From positions 1 to 64,000 of the forward strand of contig BJGQ01000008.1 in assembly GCA_014190575.1 (NCBI GenBank): DNA of 64,000 nucleotides. The letters are read 5' to 3'. The notes beneath the pieces are model-generated. The model was not told where the DNA came from. It worked only from the letters and a program-made list of their open reading frames with translations, and did not search any database. Of this stretch, positions 33,677 through 38,870 are shown in pieces. This DNA comes from Bacteroidota bacterium. GTDB lineage: Bacteria > Bacteroidota > Bacteroidia > Chitinophagales > UBA10324. The translations under genes were made by a program, and so were the position numbers. Each line of letters begins with the position of its first letter. Within the stretch, counting starts at the first letter, position 1.

Positions 33677-34387
33677 CTATCTCAACAAAATAACATTTCC
33701 TTCTTTCTGCACCTGTTCACCATTCGTCATAGTTGCATTGAGTTTCCAAACATAAACTCCGATTGGTTGGTCCACATTTTTGAACTTGCCATTCCACTTA
33801 TCATAAAAATTACCGGAACTGTAAACCAGTTCACCCCAACGATTGTAAACCGACCACTCAATTGTTTTTACTCCTTTTCCCAATGGGTGTAAGTAATCGT
33901 TGCTTCCATCATTGTTGGGAGAAAAGGCAGAAGGCATTGTTACAACATAACAAGTCAGGTCAACATTAATTGTAGTGGAAAATGAATTCGTACATCCTGA
34001 AATATCAGTTGCTGTAACAGTGTAATTGATTTCAGAAGTTGGTGAAGTGGAAGGATTAAAAATTGTTGCATCATTCAATCCACCAGAAGGTTGCCAGTTA
34101 TAATTGCAAGTGCTACATCCATTCACAAATAGCTGAATGGTATTACCGGGACAAATGAGTGTATCAATAATTCCTGAAAGAATAAAATAATCGTAAGTGA
34201 CAATCACAGATGCAGTATCAGTACACCCAAAAGAAGTGGAAACTGTTACAGTATAAGAAGTTGTTTGAAAAGGCGAAGCAAGCGGATTGGAAATAGTAGA
34301 TGAAGAAAGGCTGGTTGATGGCGACCACAAATAGCTAATTGCACCACTTGCAGAAATTTGGGCAGGAAATAAATTAAAAGATAAACC
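33677..34387 (-). pseudogene. C-terminal fragment of a T9SS/CHU_C cargo protein
   Basis: The frame encodes immunoglobulin/PKD-like repeats (SASGAISYLWSPSTSLSSST, then a second starting LICPGNTIQLFVNG) and ends with a gliding-motility-associated C-terminal domain: PSAFSPNNDGSNDYLHP, VYNRWGELVYSS and VYVWKLNA. There is no ATG or signal peptide; only a TTG at 34330 lies inside the first repeat. The first repeat is cut just before AQISASG, exactly where the fragment at 36896-38212 stops after TADAGND. The two pieces therefore look like one gene interrupted by about 2.5 kb. If expressed alone it could not be exported. Confidence 0.7.
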
Positions 34388-34635
34388 TCATAAACTAATA
34401 TAAATGAAAATGGGGTATATATTGCAGCAATTGGGTTTTTCAATAAATTTGATGGTTCATTAATAGATATAATATCAAAGTATATCAAACCAATAATTGT
34501 TAAGTGAATAATAAAACTACCAAGAGCAATCCATAAGATGACCTTCTCGCTCTTTTCTTTTGTTTTATTTGAAAGAAGTTTTTGATAAAGGTTTTCACTG
34601 AGTTTTGATAATTCCATAATGATTTCTTTTTTCAA
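34246..34635 (-). pseudogene. Truncated membrane protein gene
   Basis: The frame starts MKKEIIMELSKLSENLYQ and has hydrophobic helices at about residues 32-52 and 68-90. It contains NPIAAIYTPFSFILVYEVY, which I recall as a conserved block in a Bacteroidota/cyanobacterial membrane family that normally runs on for a few hundred residues. After YFLPK (about 34364) the frame runs into the T9SS fragment in the wrong register and ends. So the real part is about 90 residues and the 3' portion is missing. The junction lies in a shared CCTGCCCAAA stretch. Confidence 0.6.
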
Positions 34636-34988
34636 AATATTTTATAGTTTTTAATCCAATCAAACTTAATAATAAAATCTTATTGATTCGAATCTTGTGA
34701 AGTTAAGTATATCAACGTACAAATTTGAAATAAAATACAAATATTTATTGAACTCATTAATGTTCAAATTTATCAATTCTGAGCTATTTTACAATAAGTT
34801 TGTTATCGGCTGTCCTTCTTTTTAGTAAATAGGTAAGCGGACTATAACAAAAAAGAGTTTAAAAGAAGTAAAAAACAAGATAGAAAATAACGCTCAAACT
34901 CTTTTACAATGTTCATTTTATAAAAAAACCATTTTAAAATTTTCTTAAATATTTTTAAATCTTATTTTTATACGATTTAGTATTTATA
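34636..34988. other. AT-rich non-coding stretch in the inserted segment
   Basis: About 350 bases without a convincing gene, very AT-rich. It holds a perfect ten-base inverted repeat AAAAGAGTTT/AAACTCTTTT (34851-34860 and 34896-34905) with a 35-base spacer. No T-run follows in the cyclase direction, so a terminator is not shown. Confidence 0.5.
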
Positions 34989-36794
34989 CTATGACTTTAT
35001 TTCTGCAAAATACATAGCTATTTCGCCTTTATTTTTAGCTTCTATTTTACCTCTGTAAAAGCAGTTGAAATCATTTTTAACTAATTCATAAGTGCTTTCG
35101 CTGATATTTATTTTCCCTGCCTCTGAATTTTGTTCTATACGAGAAGCAAGATTCACCGTATCACCCCAAATATCGTAAGCATATTTTCGAATGCCAACAA
35201 TGCCAGCAACTAAAGGTCCAGTATGAATGCCTATTCGAATTTCAAATGGAATTTCGCCGCGTGCTTCTTTTTCTTTTTTACGATTCATAATAAAGCTCCG
35301 AATTTCGAAGGCGGCATTTAGCATATCTACTGCATGTGTGTAGTTGCTTAATGGTAATCCACTCGCACAAAGGTATGCATCGCCAATTGTTTTTATTTTT
35401 TCAATTTTATGTTTCTGTAAAATGTGATCGAAAGCGCTGAAGCAAATATGTATTTCTTCCACCAATAATTCGGCACTTATTTTTTCACTTACTTGTGTAA
35501 AGTCTTTAAAATCGGTAAACATTACCGTTACCATTGTATATGCTTTGGCCTTTGCAGCACCTGTTAATTTTATTTCATCAGCAACTTCTACAGGAAGAAT
35601 GTTGAGTAGTAATTCTTCGCTGCGTTCTTTTTCTGCTTCACTTATTTTTTTTGCTTCACTGATCTTATTTCGCTGATGAAAAAATACTAATGCAAAAAGT
35701 AGCACTATAGCGAAGCCTCCAATTAATCCGTTGCGAACTAATTTTTGTTTCTGTAATTCTTTTTCATTTTCTAATTTGGTAAACAATTCTTTTTTATCAA
35801 AATTGTATTGCATATTTTGTTGAGTGATTTTTTTTGTGTTCTCATTGTTGATTAAAATTTCATGAGTAGTGATGAATAGTTTGTAATGTTCTAGCGCTTG
35901 TTTATAATCGCCCATGGCACTATCCAATGCAGCAAAATCTCGGTAAAATTCCACCATGTTTAGAAGGTTGCCATTTCCCTTTACAATAGACAATCCTTTT
36001 TTCAGATATTTAGCAGCATCGTTATATTTTTTTTGCCGCATATAAGTTTGGGCAATATTACCGAAAGAACTGGCGATGTCTGATTTTATACCTTTTTTCT
36101 CGAAAATTTTTAAAGCAGCAAACTCATAAACTAATGCTAACGAATAATTACCTTGTTTGGAGTAAACAGATCCCAAACATAGTTTGGCTCCGGCAATTCC
36201 TAAAGTGTCGCCCAACTCGTCAACTATTTTTAAGGATTCTAGGTAATTCTGAAGTGCCTCAGGATATTTTTTTTGATTGTCATAAAGATATCCAATATTG
36301 ATATAACATTTTGCTATGCTGCTCTTGTCACCGACCTCTTTAAATATTTTTAAGCTTTTATTGTAATTTATTACCGCTTCTGAATAATCTTTTTGTTCGT
36401 TATATATTAGTCCGATACTTAAATAACAACTAGCAATGCCGCGTTGATCTTTCATCTGTTCAAATATTTTTAAAGCAGCAATAAAATTATTTAATGCTTT
36501 TGAGGAATTGCCTTCATTTCTAAAAATAGCTCCGATACTTCGATGTGCATTGGCTATCCCTTTTTTGTATCCTATTTTTTCCGATAATGCTAAAGATTGT
36601 TTGGCATAATTTATTGCCTTTTCCGGATTGTTATCTTTATAACTTTTGAAGAGTTCATATAATAAGTTTACAGCTGTCGTATCTTCTGTCTGGTTTTTAA
36701 GTTTGTTGGTGAGAGAGTCAACGATGTGTTGATCTTGGGCTAAACAATTAAGCACAAAAAGTGAAGCTACTAAAAGTAAGAGAGTTTTTTTCAT
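34989..36794 (-). CDS. TPR-domain class III adenylate cyclase
   Basis: A 601-residue sensor enzyme. A signal peptide (MKKTLLLLVASLFVLNCLAQ) is followed by about seven tetratricopeptide repeats (roughly residues 45-300), which should lie in the periplasm. One transmembrane helix follows (NGLIGGFAIVLLFALVFFH), then a coiled linker and a cytoplasmic cyclase domain. The domain has both metal aspartates (FTDFKDFT, GDAYLC), the lysine in IKTIGD and aspartate in YDIWGDTVN that select ATP, and the Asn/Arg pair in VNLASR. It should therefore make cAMP. The ATG at 36794 is favoured by the signal peptide. It lies in a segment that seems to interrupt a T9SS cargo gene. Confidence 0.92.
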   Translation of the reverse strand: MKKTLLLLVASLFVLNCLAQDQHIVDSLTNKLKNQTEDTTAVNLLYELFKSYKDNNPEKAINYAKQSLALSEKIGYKKGIANAHRSIGAIFRNEGNSSKALNNFIAALKIFEQMKDQRGIASCYLSIGLIYNEQKDYSEAVINYNKSLKIFKEVGDKSSIAKCYINIGYLYDNQKKYPEALQNYLESLKIVDELGDTLGIAGAKLCLGSVYSKQGNYSLALVYEFAALKIFEKKGIKSDIASSFGNIAQTYMRQKKYNDAAKYLKKGLSIVKGNGNLLNMVEFYRDFAALDSAMGDYKQALEHYKLFITTHEILINNENTKKITQQNMQYNFDKKELFTKLENEKELQKQKLVRNGLIGGFAIVLLFALVFFHQRNKISEAKKISEAEKERSEELLLNILPVEVADEIKLTGAAKAKAYTMVTVMFTDFKDFTQVSEKISAELLVEEIHICFSAFDHILQKHKIEKIKTIGDAYLCASGLPLSNYTHAVDMLNAAFEIRSFIMNRKKEKEARGEIPFEIRIGIHTGPLVAGIVGIRKYAYDIWGDTVNLASRIEQNSEAGKINISESTYELVKNDFNCFYRGKIEAKNKGEIAMYFAEIKS

Positions 36795-36895
36795 ATTCTT
36801 TTTATTTCTTGCAGTTACCTTTAATTTACGAATATCTAACGCTATTATACTCAACTAAATGTTCCATACTTTACGACTATTGCACCGCTACTAAG

Positions 36896-38212
36896 CTAAT
36901 AAATATAATCATTTCCTGCATCAGCAGTCGGATTTGGATGAACAGCAACAACCACCTCGTCAGAACCAGTGCAATTGGATGAACCAGTTACTGTTAAAGT
37001 ATAAGTTGTAGTTTGTATTGGCGATGCAACCGGATTGAAAATATTTGTAGATGATAATCCTGAAGTTGGCAACCACGAATAATTTCCGCCACCGCTTGCA
37101 GACAGTTGAACTTGTCCGCCTTCGCAATATCCTACATCATTTCCGGCAAACACATTTGCTACCTGAGTAATTGTGACTACAACAGAATCAGAAGAAGTGC
37201 ATCCGAAAGAATTTGCAAGTGTAACGGTATAGGTCGTTGTAAGAGTTGGCGATGCATCTGGGTTTGCGTTGGTGGAGGAGGACAAACTTCCAGCAGGTGA
37301 CCATGAATAAGTTCCGCTACCAACTGCATGAATTTGTGTTTGTTCACCTGAACAAATACTGGTGTCACCACTTGCTGTAACAGTCGAACTTGGATGAACA
37401 GTTATAACAACCGAATCGATAGCCGGACAAAAACTCAGCGATGCATCAATCGTGTAAGTAGTCGTTGCTGTTGGAGATGCAATCGGGTTACTGCAATTCG
37501 TGCAACTCAATCCGGTTGAAGGAGTCCATGTATAGGTATTCGTATTATTGAATTGAAACTGGTAAGAACTTCCATTGCAAATGGATGTGTCAACTCCTGC
37601 ATCGAAAATAAAATTGCAGATGCAAGGACTGAATGTGATATCATCCAACCCGAAATCATTTCCGCCGAGATTGGTGTTTTGATTCACAATGCAAATAGTT
37701 GCCGAAGTGTTTACTCCGCTGTACCAGCTATCATTAAATTCCTGCCACAAAAAAGTCACAGCCGGCGCATTGAACGCACTTCCTATAGTAATTCCGTTAA
37801 TGCTGAATTGTAAAATAGCAGGACTGTTTGCCACCATCGAGCTCACCCAGGTGGAGAAAAGATATTGTGTATTAGGTGTAACGGTTATTGTTTGACACCA
37901 CACATTTGTGTTTGGTGTTCCTGCTCCATTCACTATCATGAGGTTTCCTGTACCCGTTGTATGATCATTCCCAACAAATGCTGAATGGAAGAAAGTCGGA
38001 TTAGCGCCAACAGCATAAAATGATTCAGGTTGAAGGCAGTTGCCGGTATTGCAGTAAGTATAATCACTTGTGAAACCTGTGTTACCGGCTTCAAAATCTC
38101 CATTCACCACCAGGTTTTGGGAACTGGTATCAGTTCCTGCAGGACACTGCGCAAAACTTAATTGAGAAAATAAAATGGAAACAGTAAATAAAAAAGCAAG
38201 GAAGAATTTCAT
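36896..38212 (-). pseudogene. N-terminal fragment of a T9SS cargo protein with Ig-like repeats
   Basis: A 438-residue exported protein fragment. The signal peptide ends SFAQ; residues about 30-200 form a carbohydrate-binding-like beta domain (LVVNGDFEAGNTGF to GGNDFGLDDITFSPC). Three or more Ig/PKD-like repeats follow, each with a CxG-xxxQ...YxWxPxxGLS...NPxASP pattern. The last repeat stops at TADAGND, followed by a three-residue YIY tail and TAG from unrelated sequence. A sorting domain is missing here but is present in the matching fragment at 33677-34387. If translated, the product could reach the periplasm but not the surface. Confidence 0.75.
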
Positions 38213-38341: not shown

Positions 38342-38548
38342 ATGCAACTATTGATAGAAATAAAAGACAACAAAGCTGAAGCATTACTGAAAGTGCTTCG
38401 CGATTTGCCGTATGTGAAAACAAAAACTATTTCTCCTGCTAAAGCGAAATTTCTTTCTGAGTTCAAAGAAGCAATCAAAGAACTGAATGCGGTGAAGGAA
38501 GGAAAATTGAAAGCGAGAAATGCAGAAGATTTTTTGAATGCCTTATAA
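38342..38548 (+). CDS. Antitoxin of a RelE-type pair
   Basis: A 68-residue protein starting with a short strand (QLLIEIKDNKAEALLKVL) followed by a lysine-rich helical half (FLSEFKEAIKELNAVKEGK). The small N-terminal ferredoxin-like/strand-helix pattern and the charged tail are common in Bacteroidota RelE partners. It overlaps the toxin start by 11 bases and has a good promoter. Assignment is by context and size. Confidence 0.8.
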   Translation: MQLLIEIKDNKAEALLKVLRDLPYVKTKTISPAKAKFLSEFKEAIKELNAVKEGKLKARNAEDFLNAL

Positions 38549-38870
38549 GATTAAATCGCTTCCGTTATTTGAGAAGCAATCAAAACGACTTATAAAAAAA
38601 TATCCTTCTCTCAAGCGAGAATTATTGGCCCTTATTGAATTGCTGAAAACTAATCCCGAAGCCGGAATAGCAATTGGAAAGAATTGTTTCAAAATCAGGA
38701 TTTCGATTGCTTCAAAAGGAAAGGGTAAATCAGGAGGAGCAAGAGTGATTACAAATATTGTTTTTCAAAATAAAATAGTTTTTTTGATTTCGATTTATGA
38801 TAAATCTGAAATCGGTTCACTGCCTCAGTCAGAATTGGATTTTTTGTTGAATCAAATCAAACTCAAATAA
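38538..38870 (+). CDS. RelE-family toxin
   Basis: A 110-residue RelE-type cytotoxin. LPLFEKQSKRLIKKYPSLK forms the first strand and helix; the segment FKIRISIASKGKGKSGGARVIT is a marker of this subgroup (cited in part as SKGKGKSGGAR), followed by VFLISIYDKSEIGS. Such toxins usually cleave mRNA at the ribosomal A site. The basic KGKGKSGGAR loop would contact RNA. It is followed by the PIF1-type helicase gene after 15 bases, possibly within the same transcript. Confidence 0.9.
   Translation: MPYKIKSLPLFEKQSKRLIKKYPSLKRELLALIELLKTNPEAGIAIGKNCFKIRISIASKGKGKSGGARVITNIVFQNKIVFLISIYDKSEIGSLPQSELDFLLNQIKLK

Follow-up and report, generated by a model that had tools for sequence, protein, structure and literature searches.

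A T9SS cargo gene split by a horizontally acquired segment with a TPR-adenylate cyclase gene in a Bacteroidota bacterium

T9SS cargo proteins of type B (CHU_C / gliding) combine a signal peptide, Ig-like repeats and a CHU_C sorting domain. The locus described here encodes all three, but in a gene that lies in two non-functional pieces. TPR-class III adenylate cyclases of Bacteroidota have a signal or transmembrane segment, a TPR array, a coiled coil and a Guanylate_cyc domain with all catalytic motifs. The cyclase at this locus shares that layout and has relatives with 56–60% amino acid identity in related genomes, but it sits inside another gene and is matched by a near-identical copy from a distant genome. 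Integron gene cassettes, including those inserted at attG sites, are single-gene units, and close homologues of this cyclase lie beside attC-like palindromes; the copy considered here, however, lacks a complete attC at both ends, and its breakpoints lie elsewhere than at G^TTRRRY. Illegitimate or homology-facilitated insertion, as in natural transformation, involves a few identical bases at the join, a small target deletion and no element ends, all of which are seen here, but neither side was found to have a long homologous anchor.

The window is a 64,000-nt stretch of a Bacteroidota genome (G000; assembly GCA_014190575.1, contig BJGQ01000008.1, positions 1 to 64,000). On its minus strand lie, in order, a 438-aa ORF (38212–36896), a gene for a TPR-cyclase, a small hydrophobic ORF and a frame with a CHU_C domain at its end (33677). 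A preliminary description had taken the outer two for fragments of one T9SS cargo gene split by a segment of about 2.5 kb carrying the TPR-adenylate cyclase, and both fragments are as it described them. The 5′ fragment (36896–38212, minus strand) has a signal-peptide-like N-terminus, an N-terminal domain and Ig-like repeats (Ig_7-like by Pfam), and ends in TADAGNDYIY. Its native sequence covers 36908–38212, and its stop codon comes from the insert. The 3′ fragment (33677–34369, minus strand) resumes in native sequence at FPAQISASG (34369) and carries the remaining Ig repeats and a CHU_C / type B sorting domain (PF13585, E = 2e-14; TIGR04131, 40.6 bits against a cut-off of 35) up to its end at 33677. 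With 39 CHU_C matches in the genome, the broken gene belongs to a large set encoding such cargo proteins. Neither an intact nor a second copy of it was found in this genome, the next matches being Ig repeats of other proteins. Judged from its sequence, the gene would now be null: the 5′ piece could be secreted but lacks the sorting domain, and a signal peptide and a start are both missing from the 3′ piece. Both pieces have kept their frames and look constrained (dN/dS 0.09 and 0.15), so the break is recent relative to the divergence from a second genome of the genus, G003.

In G003 a single ORF of 671 aa (L022:459–2474) spans both halves, with amino acid identities of 84% to the 5′ fragment and, over its C-terminal half, 86.5% to the 3′ fragment. 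Signal peptide (judged by eye) and sorting domain are thus on one chain there, whereas the split separates them in the window. The gene order upstream is common to both genomes, with a helicase gene adjoining and an ATP-synthase gamma gene further on. Seven homologues from other genera among the matches listed (42–49% identity) are likewise each one open ORF, of 530–663 aa, so that no relative was seen with two separate genes having the ends of these fragments. It is confirmed that neither half is a separate gene. Between the conserved GAT and TTTCC, G003 has 18 nt, or 6 codons, and the window 2,538 nt; the preliminary estimate of about eight missing residues is therefore too high. The native edges are at 36908 (the end of GAAATGAT) and about 34369, which corrects the positions first proposed (36907 and 34364).

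Two further differences between the genomes lie around the cargo gene. Synteny ends exactly past it (window 33677, L022:459), where the window has FeoA and FeoB genes and G003 a recA-like gene. On the other side, in the gap of 673 bp that separates the cargo gene from the helicase gene, the window has two small overlapping plus-strand ORFs, of 68 aa (38342–38548) and 110 aa (38538–38870, RelE-like by a weak Pfam match). They look like an accessory toxin–antitoxin-type module and are missing from G003, whose gap measures 120 bp.

The inserted segment (34370–36907, minus strand, about 2.54 kb) replaces 18 nt of the ancestral gene and has no counterpart in the G003 ortholog. In GTDB contigs, a scan retrieved one near-identical copy, here called L037 (CALQOD010000116.1, from MAG HRS-HS6-bin-60, genome G040), with 98% protein identity. 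Window positions 34368–36914 align with L037:3695–6240 at 97.1% DNA identity over the full length, in coding and non-coding sequence alike. The left flank of L037 is unrelated to that of the window, and the rest of G040 shares only trivial matches of 25–31 nt with the cargo–helicase region. An insert 97% identical in a genome that has no real DNA match to the locus shows that it moved by horizontal transfer. The next nearest relatives reach 56–60% identity in protein or a partial 71% in DNA. Base composition, which the preliminary description had proposed to compare, fits a foreign origin as well: GC content is 33% in the cyclase gene and 25% in the small ORF, against 37–42% in the cargo gene. 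Based on the intact syntenic ortholog and on the second copy with its different flank, we consider it confirmed that a real insertion of horizontally acquired DNA disrupts the type B cargo gene; a rearrangement of another kind, which had been offered alongside insertion, finds no support.

No third copy of the insert was found in 396 genomes of the order, in viral contigs, phages or plasmids, or in the GTDB contig scan, and the window genome holds no further copy of it or of its right end. ORF and Pfam analysis of the insert revealed no recombinase or transposase gene, and an Rfam search gave chance matches only. The upstream part of the L037 contig (1–3694) is a mosaic: an OGT-like gene of 55% GC with plasmid-borne alphaproteobacterial homologues and a reversed HAMP-type cyclase gene with Rhizobium-like matches precede the insert twin of 31% GC. 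This contig is either a cassette-like island or reflects a binning or assembly problem of its MAG.

The cyclase gene (34989–36794, minus strand) encodes 601 aa from the ATG at 36794, with an N-terminal hydrophobic segment, TPRs (PF13424, 1.8e-35), a coiled coil and a Guanylate_cyc domain (PF00211, 4.4e-53). The catalytic domain can be aligned with solved class III cyclases, and its motifs FTDFKDF, KIEKIKTIGD and YDIWGDTVN (YDIWGDTVNLASRI) include the two metal Asp residues, the adenine-selecting Lys/Asp and the transition-state Asn/Arg. Differences from the L037 copy are mainly synonymous (dN/dS about 0.14), which indicates that the cyclase has been kept for its function by purifying selection since the two copies separated. 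Downstream, the small hydrophobic ORF (34371–34617, minus strand) has no Pfam match and no NCBIfam match above cut-off, and searches of the family's other 15 genomes, of relatives and of viral contigs did not find it. It had been taken for a truncated membrane gene. The ORF is there, but its truncation is uncertain, as the L037 copy ends at a stop codon of its own, 22 nt short of the contig end; in the window this stop is lost and the ORF runs on across the right junction, in a reading frame other than that of the cargo gene.

At the left junction (36908–36914, minus strand) the heptanucleotide AAATGAT is common to the host gene, including its G003 version (GGAAATGAT), and to L037, and from AAATGAT onward the window and L037 share their sequence. 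The chance of a match of at least 7 nt at a random junction is P = 6.4e-4 (0.064% of trials). At the right, the L037 contig ends at window position 34368, 0–3 nt from the point where the native TTTCC resumes. It is unlikely that this coincidence arose by chance. It suggests either defined element ends, or two contexts in the sample behind L037, with the assembler cutting at the branch. Searches for terminal repeats and for single-strand folds of the insert ends gave nothing above shuffled sequences, with no terminal inverted repeats, and instead of a target duplication there is a loss of 18 nt. Classical non-homologous end joining was not the route, as no Ku gene turned up in the genus. We also considered that the 3′ half might have been imported together with the insert, but rejected this: synonymous divergence from G003 drops gradually, with no step at the junction.

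The relatives of the cyclase bear on where the insert came from. Consensus pairs RYYYAAC...GTTRRRY occurred only in L037, so we used a scored scan instead (home-made scoring; scores of at least 18 occur in 1% of random windows); a covariance model of attC sites was dropped as six sites aligned poorly. One cyclase homologue (L040) has an attC-like palindrome 16 nt downstream (score 28.9) and more such sites in its contig, and another (L039) has one upstream (22.1). L037 itself has a site immediately upstream of score 18.8, which is marginal alone, at about the 1% level. Two relatives, and weakly a third, thus lie in attC arrays, which makes it plausible that integrons carry this cyclase subfamily as cassettes. 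The left breakpoint of the window falls within the L037 palindrome, upstream of GTTAGAT, so that only the 3′ arm is retained. Within the insert no attC-like site rises above background: a possible degenerate hairpin after the cyclase (34840–34935, minus strand; AACATT, a 10-bp stem, GTTATAG) scores 13.8, where 80 matches of at least 12 occur in 120 kb, and the right end has no site. The segment in the window is consequently not a whole integron cassette. Given the palindromes beside its close homologues and the position of the left breakpoint, its source was probably an integron-type cassette array. The shared upstream motifs TGCAAGAAAY and TTAGTAGCGG were set aside as too rare to interpret.

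An integron-like platform and further integrases occur in the genus. In G003 (L139, contig C6, 282–4407) the stretch up to the contig start contains a 382-aa IntI/XerA-like integrase, two ORFs and, after the integrase, a pair of strong attC-like palindromes. Related integrases lie at the edge of contig C57 in the window genome and in contig C356 of G002. In the latter (L142, 3551–6924) the integrase is directly followed by an 839-aa ORF that starts after a GTTAGCGGC site; this ORF is sacsin-like, possibly defence-related in appearance, and could be a cassette.

The preliminary description had named an assembly chimera as a possibility. The genome is a draft in 91 contigs, and an assembler could have joined unrelated sequence into the gene. 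This would take two false joins that nevertheless left both gene halves together on a single contig, exchanged no more than about 18 nt of the gene and also coincided with the end of the copy in L037, an independent assembly; moreover, divergence from G003 runs smoothly across the junction. A chimera is therefore very unlikely, and the split is almost certainly a real and fairly recent scar of gene transfer. Alternatively, an integron integrase could have used a secondary, attG-like site of the cargo gene to insert a cyclase cassette, given that the genus has IntI/XerA-like integrases and attC-like arrays and that attC-like sites adjoin close cyclase homologues. But such a cassette should run from G^TTRRRY to a whole attC, whereas the left end observed is inside a palindrome and the right end has no attC-like site, and none of the integrases in 10 genomes scored above the integron-integrase cut-off. 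Since the mapped ends do not fit cassette borders, we regard this as improbable.

As the main rival, the segment could be a non-autonomous mobile element whose ends are fixed at roughly AAATGATTATATTTATT...AATTTATT and which a recombinase or transposase from another locus moves in trans; both copies lie behind the same short target. Window and L037 have both boundaries in common within a few nucleotides (the left ends within 7 nt), although the right boundary of L037 is a contig end; their left flanks differ, each end has ATTTATT in the same orientation, and a small loss of target would be compatible. However, there are no terminal inverted repeats, no foldable ends and no target duplication; as the insert has no transposase gene either, it does not qualify as a transposon or IS-type element. 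The two known copies are single in their genomes, and none was added by the searches of the order, plasmids, phages and GTDB contigs. We consider this somewhat unlikely.

Our preferred explanation, held with moderate confidence, is that a fragment of a cassette array was captured by microhomology-assisted illegitimate recombination and knocked out the cargo gene. A 2.54-kb fragment of foreign Bacteroidota DNA with the TPR-adenylate cyclase gene and the small membrane ORF, derived most likely from an integron-type cassette region, would have entered the gene in one event at a cost of at most 18 nt of the target. The left end would have joined at the AAATGAT identity and the right end at little or no identity. 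The cyclase gene is co-directional with the cargo gene and may be transcribed from its promoter.

In other respects the case is ordinary. It is a clean case in which foreign DNA has inactivated one among many T9SS surface or secreted proteins, and both the unoccupied site and a second, near-identical copy of the segment are available. A broader and rather doubtful proposal is that the TPR-adenylate cyclase genes of this Bacteroidota group are integron-type cassettes whose hairpin attC sites act as break points, freeing cassette fragments into unrelated genes, and that one of these here silenced a T9SS cargo gene and placed a cAMP-signalling gene under its promoter. If the cassette link is true, second-messenger enzymes would be integron cargo in Bacteroidota, and attC sites would be sources of insertions outside the arrays.
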